64,000 nt of DNA, from NCBI RefSeq assembly GCF_014204495.1, contig NZ_JACHLN010000001.1:1054001-1118000 (forward strand). The letters are read 5' to 3'. The position numbers and the translations under genes were made by a program. The stretch comes from Sphingomonas kyeonggiensis (GTDB lineage: Bacteria; Pseudomonadota; Alphaproteobacteria; Sphingomonadales; Sphingomonadaceae). Below the pieces are notes generated by a model. It had not been told where the DNA came from and searched no databases. It saw nothing but the letters and a program-made list of their open reading frames with translations. This document shows positions 2,682 through 54,890 of this stretch, one piece after another (within the stretch, counting starts at the first letter, position 1; each line of letters opens with the position of its first letter).

Positions 2682-2777
2682 TCCCCGGCGAAGGCCGGGG
2701 CCCAGTTGCAATGTCGTTCGAGAGTCTCCTGCGCTATCGATAGTGCGCCGAGCCTGGGCCCCGGCCTTCGCCGGGGA
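2682..2777. repeat. 96-bp palindromic repeat, family B copy 1
   Basis: The ends are inverted arms (TCCCCGGCGAAGGCCGGGG on the left, its reverse complement on the right) of about 23 bp, each itself a small hairpin. The 48-bp centre is not self-complementary, yet it reappears inverted at 19930-20025, with about 10 differences over the whole 96 bp counted by eye. It lies directly after the UbiH-like stop codon and before an unrelated gene. Confidence 0.85.
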
Positions 2778-2797: not shown

Positions 2798-3427
2798 ATG
2801 CCGGTGTTGCCGTTCGCATTGCTGTTGCTGCTCCAGGACGCGCCCGCGCCGATCGATGCCGAACTGGTCGAGGTCGCCCCCGGCCCCAAGCGCTATTTCC
2901 ACGCCGGTGACGAGCGGGAAGGGTGCCCGGCGCCCACCGCCGCCTGCCGGCGCAAGGGCTATGTCGTCGCCGGCGACAGGCTGGTCGCCTGGGAAGCGAA
3001 GGGTGCGCTCACGCGCGTCACCTATCTCGCCCCCGGCAGCACCTTGCCGAGCGAGGGCTGGATCGAAAGCGCTGCGTTGCGCCGGGTAGCGCCCACCCCG
3101 CCCAAGGCCAGTGACTGGTTGGGCGGCTGGAACGTCTGGGAGGCGGAGATCGATATCACCCGGGGCGCGCGGCCGGGCTCGCTCCATTTCAGCGGCAATG
3201 CCACCTGGGGCGCGCGCGATCCCGAGCGGGTGAAGATCGGCGCCATCAACACCGGCGGCTTCGGCGCCGACAGGCCTGTGCCGGCCGGCGACCGGATCGA
3301 AGTGTCCGACGCGGAAGAGCCCGATTGCCGCGTCGCGATGCGACTGCTCGGCCCGTATCTGATCGCGCGCGACAATGGCCAGTGCGGCGGGCTGAACGTG
3401 ACGTTCACAGGCGTCTATCGGCGCTGA
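2798..3427 (+). CDS. Hypothetical exported protein
   Basis: I do not recognise this 209-residue protein. It begins with a short hydrophobic stretch (VLPFALLLLL, residues 3-12), followed by acidic and proline-rich sequence, consistent with a short signal peptide although the basic n-region is missing. Four cysteines lie in the body: a close pair near residues 44 and 51, and two near the C-terminus (about residues 182 and 196). The middle (KGYVVAGDRLVAWEAKG) looks like a small beta-barrel of SH3 type, but that is only an impression. A purine-rich stretch (GAAGGG) lies 11 nt before the ATG. It stands alone between a repeat and the DUF695-RraB gene. Confidence 0.6.
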   Translation: MPVLPFALLLLLQDAPAPIDAELVEVAPGPKRYFHAGDEREGCPAPTAACRRKGYVVAGDRLVAWEAKGALTRVTYLAPGSTLPSEGWIESAALRRVAPTPPKASDWLGGWNVWEAEIDITRGARPGSLHFSGNATWGARDPERVKIGAINTGGFGADRPVPAGDRIEVSDAEEPDCRVAMRLLGPYLIARDNGQCGGLNVTFTGVYRR

Positions 3428-4194: not shown

Positions 4195-4818
4195 CTATTG
4201 CAGCGTGACCTCGTCGTCCCCGTCATGGCGGCCGTAGAACTGCATCAGCTGCACCACCAGCTCACTGCGCTCGGCGAGCGTGTCCGCCTCAAGCAGCGCC
4301 TGCTTCGATGCCGCATCGAACGGGGCGATCTGGGCGATGCCGTTGACCAGCGATTCGTCGTCGAGCCGGCTCACCGATTCCCAGTCGACCGCATAGCCGA
4401 GCACATCGGCGAAGCGGCGCGATTCGATCTCCAGCGCGGCGCGCTCGGCCATGGCGAGCACTTCGATGTCGCCCACCGCCTCCAGCTCGGCCTCGACCTG
4501 GCGGAACGGCGTCGTGACGTCGAGCTCGCGCCGGATGACGAAGCGCGCCAGTCCTTCGAGCACGATGTCGAAGCGCCCGTCGTCGAGCGCTTCCACTTCG
4601 GCGATGCGGCCGACACAGCCGATCTCGAACAGCCCGGGCGGGTTGGCGGCGTCGCGCGGCTGGATCATCCCGATGCGCCGGTCGCGGACCAGCGCGTCGG
4701 AGACCATCGCCCGGTAGCGCGGCTCGAAGATATGCAACGGCAGGTGCATCCGCGGGAAGAGCAGCGCGCCGGCCAGCGGGAACACAGACAGCCGCGTGAT
4801 CTTCCCAGAAGGCGTCAT
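4195..4818 (-). CDS. LON peptidase substrate-binding domain protein
   Basis: This 207-residue protein consists of the LON N-terminal substrate-binding domain alone (PF02190), without ATPase or protease. The start MTPSGKITRLSVFPLAG and the tract PLHIFEPRYRAMVSDAL are the family signature. The chosen start at 4818 overlaps the stop of the upstream thioredoxin gene by four bases (ATGA), so the two are probably translated together. Upstream codons in this frame read through the thioredoxin gene and were ignored. Stand-alone LON domain proteins are thought to bind unfolded or regulatory proteins, which suits a chaperone-like neighbour, but no specific target can be inferred. Confidence 0.9.
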   Translation of the reverse strand: MTPSGKITRLSVFPLAGALLFPRMHLPLHIFEPRYRAMVSDALVRDRRIGMIQPRDAANPPGLFEIGCVGRIAEVEALDDGRFDIVLEGLARFVIRRELDVTTPFRQVEAELEAVGDIEVLAMAERAALEIESRRFADVLGYAVDWESVSRLDDESLVNGIAQIAPFDAASKQALLEADTLAERSELVVQLMQFYGRHDGDDEVTLQ

Positions 4819-5717
4819 CCGAACAGGATCGCCGAAAGCTTGCGGCGCTGGGCGGAGACCCAGGGGTCTTCCAGGCCGACTGCCTCGAACAGCTTGAGCA
4901 GCCGCTGGCGGGCGGCGCCTTCGTTCCATTCGCGGTCGTCGCGCACCATCGCAAGCAGGGTCTCGGCGGCGCCGTCGCGGTCACCCGAGGCCATCTGGCC
5001 GCCGGCGAGCTCGTAGCGCGCTTCCATGTCGCCGGTGGCGGCCTGGGCGGCGAGGCCCGACAGGTCCTCTACCGGCTGGGCTTCCTTCGCCAGCGCGATC
5101 GCGGCGCGGGCCTGCTCGATCTCGGCACCCTTGGCGTCCTCGGGCAGGGCCGCGAGCACCGATTCGGCTTCCTCGGCGCGGCCCAGCGCCAGCAGGGCGC
5201 GGGCGCGGCCGGCGGCGACCACGGGATGCTCGGGCACCAGCTCGGCGATCTGCTCGAAGATCGACAGGGCGCGTTCCGGATCATTCTCGGCCAGCGACTG
5301 CTCGCCCATCTCGATCAGCGGCTCGAGCTCGGCTTCCGCCTGGGCTTCCGTGCTCTGCACCGGCAGCTGGCGCAGCAGCTGGTCGAGCATCGTGCGCAGC
5401 TGCGATTCGGTGCGCGCCGAGCTGAGGTCGGCGACCAGCTGGCCCTGGAACATCGCATAGACGGTCGGGATCGAGCGGACCTGGAACTGGTTGGCGATGA
5501 ACTGGTTCGCGTCGACGTCGACCTTGGCGAGGATCACGCCCTTGCCGGCATAGTCGGTCGCCACCTTTTCCAGGATCGGGGTCAGCGCCTTGCAGGGGCC
5601 GCACCATTCCGCCCAGAAATCGATCATGACGAGGCTGGTCATCGAGGGCTCGACGACGTCCCGGCGGAAGCCGTCCACGGCTTCCTTTTCCGCGGGGGTG
5701 AGTCCAAGCGTGGCCAA
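4815..5717 (-). CDS. cnoX: Thioredoxin-TPR co-chaperone, CnoX/YbbN type
   Basis: Residues 10-120 form a thioredoxin fold with an intact WCGPC redox centre at 38-42 and the cis-proline in RSIPT near 85. The remaining 170 residues are alpha-helical TPR-like repeats rich in Ala, Glu and Leu. This domain order and length (300 residues) match CnoX/YbbN, a holdase that protects proteins against oxidation and hands them to GroEL or DnaK. The E. coli protein lacks the CXXC pair; alphaproteobacterial members such as that of Caulobacter keep it and act as thiol reductases, as expected here. It is first gene of a two-gene operon with the LON-domain gene. Confidence 0.92.
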   Translation of the reverse strand: MATLGLTPAEKEAVDGFRRDVVEPSMTSLVMIDFWAEWCGPCKALTPILEKVATDYAGKGVILAKVDVDANQFIANQFQVRSIPTVYAMFQGQLVADLSSARTESQLRTMLDQLLRQLPVQSTEAQAEAELEPLIEMGEQSLAENDPERALSIFEQIAELVPEHPVVAAGRARALLALGRAEEAESVLAALPEDAKGAEIEQARAAIALAKEAQPVEDLSGLAAQAATGDMEARYELAGGQMASGDRDGAAETLLAMVRDDREWNEGAARQRLLKLFEAVGLEDPWVSAQRRKLSAILFG

Positions 5718-7040: not shown

Positions 7041-7122
7041 GCGGTACCGGCCCGCGCCCCCACCCGGCCACCCATATGATACTGCCGTTGGGTGGCCGGG
7101 TGGGGGCGCGGGCCGGTACCGC
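7041..7122. repeat. Perfect 34-bp inverted repeat (large hairpin)
   Basis: The left arm 7041-7074 starts GCGGTACCGGCCCGCGCC. The right arm 7089-7122 is its exact reverse complement, and the loop is 14 nt (TATGATACTGCCGT). The stem is almost entirely G+C with KpnI-like GGTACC near the base. It starts ten bases after the DUF2147 copy 2 stop. There is no T-run, so it is not a standard terminator, but the RNA would fold very stably and should block 3' exonucleases. Confidence 0.95.
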
Positions 7123-11311: not shown

Positions 11312-11360
11312 GGGGGCATTGGCCACTCCACGGTCCGCTCCCCGTCGCCTTCTTTACTCC

Positions 11361-11494
11361 GTCATCCCCGCGCAGGCGGGGATCCAGGGTAGTCCGGGAC
11401 AATCGAAGCATCGAGCACCGGCTCACCGGACAGGGTGGAGCGCGCCGCGCCCTCAGGGTGCTTGGCTCTGGATCCCCGCCTGCGCGGGGATGAC
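11361..11494. repeat. Inverted repeat with perfect 27-bp arms (family C)
   Basis: The arms 11361-11387 (starting GTCATCCCCGCGCAGGCG) and 11468-11494 are exact reverse complements, and each is itself a CCCCGC-GCAG-GCGGGG-type hairpin. The 80-bp centre is not self-complementary. It sits between the receptor terminator and the next repeat, in the convergent gap before the CoA-transferase gene. Confidence 0.9.
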
Positions 11495-11520
11495 GATGGA
11501 ATGGTTTTCCAGCTTTACTG

Positions 11521-11597
11521 TTCCCCGGCGAAAGCCGGGACCCAGGGTCACAAGCGGGACGGCAGAGAAACCCTGGGCCCCGGCCTTCGCCGGGGAA
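11521..11597. repeat. Palindromic repeat, family B arms with a different centre
   Basis: The left arm TTCCCCGGCGAAAGCCGGGA and the right arm ending GGCCTTCGCCGGGGAA pair over about 25 bases. These arms match the 96-bp family B element, but the centre is shorter and unrelated. With the terminator at 11279 and the repeat at 11361 it fills the 372-bp gap between two convergent genes; I see no coding sequence there. Confidence 0.85.
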
Positions 11598-11624
11598 CCG
11601 CTAAACCGCGAATATCGATGATTT

Positions 11625-16950: not shown

Positions 16951-17004
16951 GCGGAATGCCTTAGTAGCTCGAACGCCGCTTGTCGAAGCGGGCCTTGCTG
17001 GATT

Positions 17005-17152
17005 CCCCTCCCTGCAAGGGAGGGGCTAGGGGTGGGTGGCGACCCCGGCGAAGGCCGGGGGAGCTCAGCTATCGGCCCGCGATAAAGAAAAGGCCGGGCA
17101 TCGAGCCCGCCCTTTTCTAACCCACCCCCAACCCCTCCCTTGCAGGGAGGGG
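17005..17152. repeat. Composite palindromic repeat, family A copy 2 with a nested family B hairpin
   Basis: The terminal 21-nt hairpins (17005-17025 and 17132-17152) match those at 1255-1393. About 50 bases near 17083-17135 are the reverse complement of the left half of copy 1 with two or three differences by eye, including the AAAAGGCCGGGC-ATCGA-GCCCGCCCTTTT hairpin. A family B hairpin (CCCCGGCGAAGGCCGGGG, about 17043-17060) lies inside. It occupies most of the hemC/tsaD divergent gap. Confidence 0.85.
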
Positions 17153-17240
17153 AGTGGAATTGGCCCAAAATCCCCCACAACTTCGACAATCGCCCCGCGA
17201 CACCCTAGATGCGCAACCAACGGAGTAAGAAACACACATC

Positions 17241-19240: not shown

Positions 19241-19773
19241 AATGGGCGGCGATGCTGCGGGGGATCAACCTCGGCAAGCGCCAGCTCAAATCGGCGGAAC
19301 TGAAGGCCGTGGTCGAGGGGATGGGCTTCACCGAGGTCAAGACGATCCTCGCCTCGGGCAATGTCGTGTTCGAAGCGGGCGACGCCAGCCCGGAAGCGCT
19401 GGAGCGCGACCTCCATGCCGCGCTCGAAAAGGCGACCGGGCTCAAGTCCGATGTCTATGTCCGCAATCGCGCCGATCTGGAGAAGCTGGTCGCGGCCAAT
19501 CCCTTCCCGAAGGAAGCCGAGGAGCGCCCGAGCTTCCTCCTCGTCACCTTCCACCGCGAACCGCCGAGCCAGGCGGCGATCGACAAGCTCCTCGAAAGCC
19601 ATGACGGCCCCGAGCGGATGGTGATTCTCGGCCGCGAGCTGTTCACCGATTTCCCCGAAGGCCAGGCCCGCTCGACCCTGATCCCCGCGATGCAGAAGGC
19701 GAAACTCGCCCACGCCAATACCGGCCGCAACTGGAACACGGTCCTCAAGCTGCTGGCGGCGCTGGGGGAGTAG
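19237..19773 (+). CDS. DUF1697 family protein
   Basis: This 178-residue cytoplasmic protein opens with WAAMLRGINLGKRQLKSAEL, the DUF1697 signature, and has VKTILASGNVVFEAG and FPEGQARSTL further on. The family is found across bacteria with no established function. The start is the GTG at 19237, which overlaps the gpsA stop (GTGA); an internal ATG at 19252 would cut into the conserved opening. It is the last gene of the tsaD-gpsA group, followed by palindromic repeats. Confidence 0.88.
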   Translation: MKWAAMLRGINLGKRQLKSAELKAVVEGMGFTEVKTILASGNVVFEAGDASPEALERDLHAALEKATGLKSDVYVRNRADLEKLVAANPFPKEAEERPSFLLVTFHREPPSQAAIDKLLESHDGPERMVILGRELFTDFPEGQARSTLIPAMQKAKLAHANTGRNWNTVLKLLAALGE

Positions 19774-19781
19774 AACACATT

Positions 19782-19902
19782 CCCCTCCCTGGAAGGGAGG
19801 GGCTAGGGGTGGGTGGAATGCTCGCCTACGGTGACCGCTCGGGTCGAATTGGCCGTAACACCAAGACGCGACCCACCCCAACCCCTCCCTTCCAGGGAGG
19901 GG
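19782..19902. repeat. Composite palindromic repeat, family A copy 3
   Basis: The terminal hairpins CCCCTCCCT-GGA-AGGGAGGGG (19782-19802) and CCCCTCCCT-TCC-AGGGAGGGG (19882-19902) lie around GGGGTGGGTGG and ACCCACCCCA tracts. Loop bases differ from copies 1 and 2 and the centre is unrelated to theirs. It follows the DUF1697 stop codon. Confidence 0.8.
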
Positions 19903-19929
19903 AGAACAAGCGGATCACCACCACCCAGT

Positions 19930-20025
19930 TCCCCGGCGAAGGCCGGGGCCCAGTCTCGGCGCACTATCGACGGCACGGGAACCTCTCGAACGACATCGCA
20001 GCTGGACCCCGGCCTTCGCCGGGGA
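19930..20025. repeat. 96-bp palindromic repeat, family B copy 2 (inverted relative to copy 1)
   Basis: It has the same length as the element at 2682-2777. Read on the opposite strand it agrees at all but about 10 of 96 positions by eye, including the non-palindromic centre (CTCGGCGCACTATCGA and CTCTCGAACGACAT). It lies between family A copy 3 and the SDHAF4-like gene. Confidence 0.85.
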
Positions 20026-20043: not shown

Positions 20044-20196
20044 TCAGAAGTCGACGGCGATACCCTTGCGCTCCCAATCCCCATACCGAGTCGGGTCCAG
20101 CGCATCGGGCTCCTTCTCCGCCGGCGCGGGCTTGGGCACGGGGGGGCTGGGCGTCAGATACGCGGGCGGTTTCACATTTGCGGGGCGCTGGGCCAT
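20044..20196 (-). CDS. DUF1674 protein, succinate dehydrogenase assembly factor 4-like
   Basis: This is a 50-residue protein whose C-terminus DPTRYGDWERKGIAVDF is the conserved DUF1674/SDHAF4 tail. In mitochondria SDHAF4 binds the flavinylated SdhA subunit and promotes succinate dehydrogenase assembly. A Pro/Lys/Glu-rich disordered region precedes the tail, as in the family. I chose the ATG at 20196; an in-frame ATG at 20244 would add 16 residues but would overlap the rsmB start on the other strand. No sdh gene is nearby. The family call is firm for the tail, while bacterial function is inferred from the mitochondrial protein. Confidence 0.8.
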   Translation of the reverse strand: MAQRPANVKPPAYLTPSPPVPKPAPAEKEPDALDPTRYGDWERKGIAVDF

Positions 20197-25765: not shown

Positions 25766-25776
25766 GACGCAAGGCC

Positions 25777-25853
25777 GTCACCCCGGCGAAAGCCGGGGTC
25801 TCAGGCGAAGGCGGGAAAGAACCACACGAGATCCCGGCTTTCGCCGGGATGAC
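25777..25853. repeat. Palindromic repeat, family B-like arms (convergent gap)
   Basis: The left arm GTCACCCCGGCGAAAGCCGG (25777-25796) pairs with CCGGCTTTCGCCGGGATGAC (25834-25853) with one mismatch; the centre of about 37 bases is unpaired. It lies between the convergent purH and flippase genes and may end transcription from both sides, although no T-run is present. Confidence 0.85.
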
Positions 25854-25863
25854 GGCTTATTCG

Positions 25864-37453: not shown

Positions 37454-37487
37454 AAGCAACCCCGCTCCCCGGCGATAGCATTACGCT

Positions 37488-37510
37488 TCCCCGGCGAACG
37501 CCGGGGAACA
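37488..37510. repeat. Single family B hairpin
   Basis: A short TTCCCCGG-CGAACG-CCGGGGAA hairpin lies in the 69-bp convergent gap between the hypothetical gene and the YadG-like ABC gene. A partial half-copy (CTCCCCGGCGA) lies about 20 bases before it. No T-run, but it may act as a bidirectional 3'-end structure. Confidence 0.75.
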
Positions 37511-54768: not shown

Positions 54769-54851
54769 CCCATCCGCTTTGGCGCATGGAGAGGGATGGG
54801 GGCAAGCGGCATCGGTGGAAAAGCTGTGAGCGATACGCCTGCGTCCCAATC

Positions 54852-54878
54852 GTCACCCCGGGCCAGGCCCGGGGTGAC
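54852..54878. repeat. Perfect hairpin after the GH47 gene
   Basis: GTCACCCCGGGCC and its reverse complement form a 13-bp stem with a single A in the loop. It lies 12 bases past the GH47 stop on the minus strand and 84 bases before the HerA-like start. No T-run on either side. Confidence 0.85.
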
Positions 54879-54890
54879 GAGGCAAAAGGT

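Follow-up and report, generated by a model that had tools for sequence, protein, structure and literature searches.

Hairpin-repeat doublets in Sphingomonas kyeonggiensis and a proposed partnership with small GIY-YIG nucleases

Two copies of a 96-bp inverted-repeat element lie in the window, the 64,000-nucleotide stretch of Sphingomonas kyeonggiensis DNA analyzed here, and each is a head-to-head dimer of REP hairpins, REPIN-like in architecture. We think it probable that these dimers are the non-autonomous half of a system completed by a small GIY-YIG nuclease. Several observations underlie this reading: most of the sampled nuclease genes are tightly bracketed by inverted arms, the type of arm follows the type of nuclease, the hairpins outlast changes in their sequence, sampled dimers lie mainly in intergenic DNA and lack target duplications, and the site of copy 2 is polymorphic between species.

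Copy 1 occupies 2682-2777 on the plus strand. Its left arm (2682-2705, plus) is the hairpin CCCCGGC-GAAG-GCCGGGG with an inner tail, CCCAG, its non-palindromic centre spans 48 bp (2706-2753, plus), and its right arm (2754-2777, minus) is the left arm inverted. Its neighbors are a ubiH-like FAD monooxygenase gene (1306-2667, FAD_binding_3) on one side and, on the other, an ORF spanning 2798-3427. Copy 2 (19930-20025, minus) sits where a DUF1697 gene, ending at 19773, converges with a DUF1674 gene on the minus strand, with its stop at 20044. The initial annotation had described the pair as equal in length and alike at about 86 of 96 positions after reverse complementation, and this description holds: both are 96 bp long, in opposite orientation, with 86 of 96 alignment columns identical. 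The 24-bp arms, separated by 48 nt, are 100% complementary in copy 1 and 96% in copy 2, and each copy carries the 7-bp stem CCCCGGC and the loop GAAG. That the centre does not pair with itself is borne out by the consensus of 30 genome copies, which, set against its reverse complement, agrees at 14 of 48 positions. The predicted fold of the element is very stable. Among 46 copies (92 ends), bases outside the arms are also conserved, with G at -2 in 88, T at -1 in 74 and C at -4 in 67, and the unit is therefore some 4 bp longer on each side, about 104 bp in total; with its 4-nt tags, copy 1 spans about 2678-2781.

The element recurs in this genome far beyond chance. At least 40 full-length copies are present in 4.96 Mb, a lower bound since 40 were scored among 261 candidates, and exact arm hairpins number 289 in one count and 145 + 156 in another, the latter against 0 for the reversed pattern. 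The genome search called for by the initial annotation thus shows that the window pair is not alone, and the view of a REP-type unit in many copies is sustained. In a 464-kb sample, two main centre types sit on common arms: L, with a 48-bp centre as in the window pair, and S, with a shorter one (CCCAGGGT...ACCCTGGG). Both have ends with a CNGT-like outer tag and a CCCAG inner tail (46 copies). The same sample also holds CGTC-tagged doublets and solo hairpins. Arms with other centres had been noted at 11521, 17043, 25777 and 37488; all four sites are real, but they turn out to be of four different kinds. They comprise an S-type relative at 11520-11598, a doublet with similar arms and a shorter, different centre; a single arm hairpin at 17043-17060 (plus) within another inverted-repeat element, 17004-17153; a CGTC-tagged doublet at 25774-25856 (GCCGTCACCCCGGCGAAAGCCGGGGTCTC ... 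GAGATCCCGGCTTTCGCCGGGATGACGGC); and a solo hairpin at 37487-37508 (TTCCCCGGCGAACGCCGGGGAA), which would be the form expected after deletion of a doublet between its GCCGGGG repeats.

Other inverted repeats share the window. A second family, with arms TCCCCTCCCTGCAAGGGAGGGG..., has copies at 1254-1394, 17004-17153 and 19781-19903, one of which carries a single hairpin of the L/S arm kind in its centre, and matches to this family are present in several relatives. A CGTC-tagged doublet at 11360-11495 has CGTCATCCCCGCGCAGGCGGGGATCCAG arms, 100% complementary and 80 nt apart, and the perfect palindromic hairpin TCGTCACCCCGGGCCAGGCCCGGGGTGACGA at 54850-54880 resembles a solo arm of the CGTC type. 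A perfect 34-bp inverted repeat with a 14-nt loop, at 7041-7122, is not arm sequence.

Within the genome, the copies of the element differ from one another. Agreement with the consensus across 30 L copies is 0.978 in the arms and 0.871 in the centre, a figure that favors the arms because the copies were found partly through them. The closest pair of the 30 is identical at 91 of 96 positions and the mean is 84.4 of 96, giving no sign of a recent burst. Target-site duplications, examined in 46 copies, do not exceed expectation. Recent mobilization, suggested by the initial annotation, is therefore not what these copies indicate. Nor is the conserved centre the anomaly it had seemed, as conserved spacers in head-to-head REP dimers are a rule of thumb in the survey of Di Nocera et al. 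(2013, PMC3733652).

Of the 24 doublets in the 464 kb, 23 are intergenic by the gene calls, including 13 that lie where two genes converge and 1 where two diverge, and the remaining doublet is inside a called gene; these settings come from a simple gene caller, which missed the DUF1674 gene and so scored the context of copy 2 as 'tandem'. Comparison of orthologous sites, as had been proposed, reveals that the copy-2 site varies between species. The element is missing in 15 of 18 relatives, in which anchors in the two convergent genes are no more than 32 bp apart, and in 2 of the 18 the left anchor could not be placed. The remaining relative, S. kyeonggiensis DS2008, carries at this site an L-type element whose centre has diverged. 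The scan yielded 38 named relatives, all Sphingomonas except for a single Sphingomonadales MAG.

The link to a nuclease comes from the relatives. At three loci of named Sphingomonas (L066, L069 and L097), the ubiH-like gene is followed by an arm, an ORF of about 98 codons' worth of protein (~98 aa) and the arm inverted. The arm is that of copy 1, and the same ubiH-like gene precedes copy 1. The ORF encodes a GIY-YIG nuclease (PF01541, E 1.7e-12); three nuclease proteins matched this domain at E 1.7e-12 to 1.1e-14, and the motif residues Y9, Y20, R30, H34, E67 and N86 are at least 98% conserved among 159 proteins. PADLOC returned no match for one nuclease protein, and none of three scored above the cut-off in NCBIfam. 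The right neighbor at L066 corresponds to window positions 4196-4877, past further ORFs; as the left neighbor is the only one directly common to copy 1 and the three relatives, copy 1 and the nuclease unit may have been inserted independently. Between the neighbors found at these three loci, L064 has a solo hairpin only, with left flanks 90-92% and right flanks 87-89% identical, and L091 has no hairpin.

This arrangement holds for most of the nuclease loci sampled in the genus. Inverted arms, defined by a local score of at least 16, bracket 83 of 94 nuclease loci, or 80 of 91 distinct ones, because three sequences are represented twice (L066 and L117, L069 and L118, L097 and L116). The fit is close, with the arm at a median distance of 11 bp upstream of the domain and 7 bp downstream of the stop. 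Random sites were bracketed in 0 of 3,000 trials (3 of 3,000 with a slightly different search window), shifted sites in 3 of 170 and ordinary genes of our genome in 1 of 304. In a first run, which dropped minus-strand loci, all 20 of the 20 loci read scored at least 16, L119 among them; the 94-locus count includes the minus-strand loci and excludes L119 as a duplicate of L114. Most nucleases in the sample were the top-scoring hits of a profile derived from five arm-flanked proteins, which biases the bracketing rate upward. Homologs occur in 269 of 295 genus genomes and 146 of 398 phylum genomes, and some genus negatives may be false, as at most 17 candidates per genome were scored, at E <= 1e-8.

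Outside the genus, but within the phylum, inverted arms enclose 42 of 66 nuclease loci, compared with 1 of 100 shifted sites; three genus loci were excluded to reach this set, 40 members of which were hand-picked from the listed matches. Pairing arms across loci gave 74 of 1,500 at a score of at least 16, a consequence of the similarity of arms from different loci. A CGTC-like tag, GTCA(T/C), is found inside the arm or no more than 6 nt from it in 32 of the 42 bracketed units (for example CGTCATTCCCGCGAAGGCGGGAATCCA).

Arm and nuclease also vary together. With proteins at least 90% identical collapsed, arm similarity and protein similarity are correlated across 61 Sphingomonas units (Mantel r 0.70, 0 of 5,000 permutations) and across 42 units outside the genus (r 0.36, 0 of 5,000 permutations). 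Paired changes keep the stem: the third pair from the loop is G-C in 65, C-G in 7 and T-A in 4 of 76 genus arms, counted in perfect hairpins with stems of at least 6, which 4 of 86 genus units and 13 of 42 others lack. Any exact arm is present in 232 of 269 nuclease-positive genus genomes as against 9 of 26 nuclease-negative ones (p=2.5e-8, uncorrected for kinship), 6 of the 26 having been assigned by eye as present in the arm count and absent from the nuclease matches. In two L-rich relatives, L-type arms flank the nuclease itself (L121 in Sphingomonas sp. R-74633, genome G323; L315 in S. kyeonggiensis DS2008, genome G301; both matched to these strains by identical coordinates), and an S-armed nuclease is found at L124 (genome G473).

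Two observations speak against a simple dose relation: our genome has 289 arms, and no L- or S-armed nuclease was found in it, whereas G445, G452 and G458 have the best-scoring nuclease units and only 4-10 arms. The two small GIY-YIG genes that our genome does possess are each enclosed by inverted palindromes of a different type, and its third GIY-YIG match, in a 664-aa frame, is taken as uvrC. In the absence of a matching nuclease, the L and S elements of our genome have probably been orphaned and are decaying slowly, although one of the two resident small nucleases might still act on them. At the locus corresponding to L121 and L124, an S-type doublet stands in our genome and we recognized no nuclease relic; the best tblastn match there (E 2.7e-5, to the last 24 residues of the L121 frame) falls on a hairpin of the doublet. 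Near-identical copies, expected in nuclease-bearing genomes if the system were recently active, were not seen. Inspection by eye of two such genomes, G244 and G338, shows constant arms around centres that vary widely from copy to copy, which is unlike recent copying of whole units and fits maintenance of the arms at least as well.

How L- and S-armed nucleases are controlled may be glimpsed upstream of their genes. A GTTC-N7-GTTC motif, which we take to resemble the alphaproteobacterial LexA box, lies 35-39 bp upstream of where the domain begins in L121 and L124, and by eye in L315 also. This LexA-like box suggests SOS control of these nucleases. We rejected it as a general feature of the family, since within 150 bp upstream it occurs at 2 of 97 genus loci (L121 and L124) and at 0 of 65 others.

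In the model that we propose, a small GIY-YIG nuclease would recognize the arm hairpin, and the autonomous member would be a nuclease gene lying between two inverted copies of its own arm. The nuclease may bind or nick arms in single-stranded or extruded form, as could arise during replication or in DNA entering by transformation. Host repair or gene conversion would then spread, convert or remove the unit, and deletion between the GCCGGGG repeats would leave solo hairpins. Both the cutting of the arm and the nuclease-driven spread are steps that we infer.

The rival reading that weighs most is a control role without mobility, in which single-stranded DNA that carries arms, for example during transformation, would be cut by the nuclease, and the repeats persist for that purpose. 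It is helped by a precedent, Ssn of Neisseria with its NTS repeats, by the greater conservation of arms than of centres among the 30 copies in our genome and by the varied centres of nuclease-bearing genomes, and yet the presence or absence of copy 2 between species, like the enclosure of a nuclease gene by arms of its own, has the appearance of a mobile unit; we hold this account to be unlikely, if by some way the strongest of the alternatives. Distinctly less probable is that the arms act in RNA, as hairpins at the 3' ends of genes that serve in mRNA protection or termination, such that bracketing of the nuclease is ordinary. The stable fold and the intergenic, often convergent placement of the doublets would suit such a role, but ordinary genes are hardly ever bracketed, arm sequence tracks nuclease sequence and, by reading, no T run follows the hairpin of copy 1. 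We give almost no credence to the doublets being MITEs of a DDE insertion sequence: short, with inverted ends and in many copies as they are, they lack target duplications above expectation and each of their arms is itself a hairpin.

The initial annotation had offered spread by a RAYT as one possibility, and classical REPINs moved by such a Y1 HuH transposase do share the inverted REP doublet, the mostly extragenic location and the high copy number. Y1 genes are also present in 31 of 199 family genomes. But PF01797 has 0 matches in our genome (3 candidates scored), and the element's tag is not GTAG. Arms occur in 37 of the 199 family genomes, no association with the Y1 genes is visible by eye, and the arm-rich members G168 and G149 are outside the 31. 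None of 12 Y1 loci of relatives (2.4-3.4 kb each) has an intact arm, the closest sequence being 'CCCCGGCTTTAGCCGGGA' in L054. We therefore rejected a RAYT partner for this genome and regard the classical REPIN explanation as very improbable. At another Y1 locus in the family, L061, a weaker-scoring and longer Y1 gene lies amid repeated TAGTGTCCCCGGAAT, a different repeat system.

Beyond the nuclease partnership that we favor for the doublets of this genome, it is tempting to speculate that small GIY-YIG nucleases are the dedicated partners of a large proteobacterial superfamily of hairpin repeats, CGTC REPs included, and form a second REPIN-like mobile system, evolved separately from RAYTs, in which each clade reads its own arm. 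We are nearly evenly divided on this broader claim, leaning slightly against it. The association itself suggests a partner for repeats that had lacked a dedicated enzyme, and covariation of arm and nuclease predicts which enzyme belongs with which repeat. If true, there would be a non-HuH route by which palindromic repeats spread.

The layout itself is already known from REPINs (PMC3116915) and CGTC REPs (PMC3733652), and the latter paper also describes conserved spacers. Like the REPINs of Bertels and Rainey (2011, PMC3116915), our elements are spaced inverted REP doublets, mainly extragenic, high in copy number and non-autonomous, and they are tied to a partner gene through their own repeat type; unlike them, the partner is a GIY-YIG nuclease in place of a Y1 transposase, no cognate RAYT was found and the outer tag is not GTAG. 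CGTC REPs, as set out by Di Nocera et al. (PMC3733652), have a CGTC (or TGTC, CCTC) outer tag, an 8-9 bp stem that almost always starts with AT, a 4-5 nt loop, a CCA tail and head-to-head dimers. The L and S elements share with them an alphaproteobacterial host, a 4-nt loop, a CCA-like tail, head-to-head dimers and conserved spacers, and differ in their CNGT-like tag and 7-bp CCCCGGC stem without an AT start; the element at 25774 and the arms at L113 and L114 do have CGTC ends. That 2013 survey reports no dedicated transposase for CGTC REPs and equates Neisseria dRS3 with CGTC-1.

Among solved sequences, the nuclease profile matched only UPF0213 GIY-YIG proteins (PDB 1zg2 and 1ywl, E 3.9e-8 and 1e-5), deposited as hypothetical proteins. 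We found no earlier link between GIY-YIG proteins and such repeats in the literature searched, which covered few subscription journals. A 2025 report on Neisseria reportedly ties a small GIY-YIG nuclease, Ssn, to the NTS repeat, present in hundreds of copies, and is said to give it a control role in transformation; that paper may already make part of the link. By analogy, Ssn would be the nearest precedent for pairing a nuclease with a repeat, from which the system described here differs in its paired doublets and in a nuclease gene held inside inverted arms.
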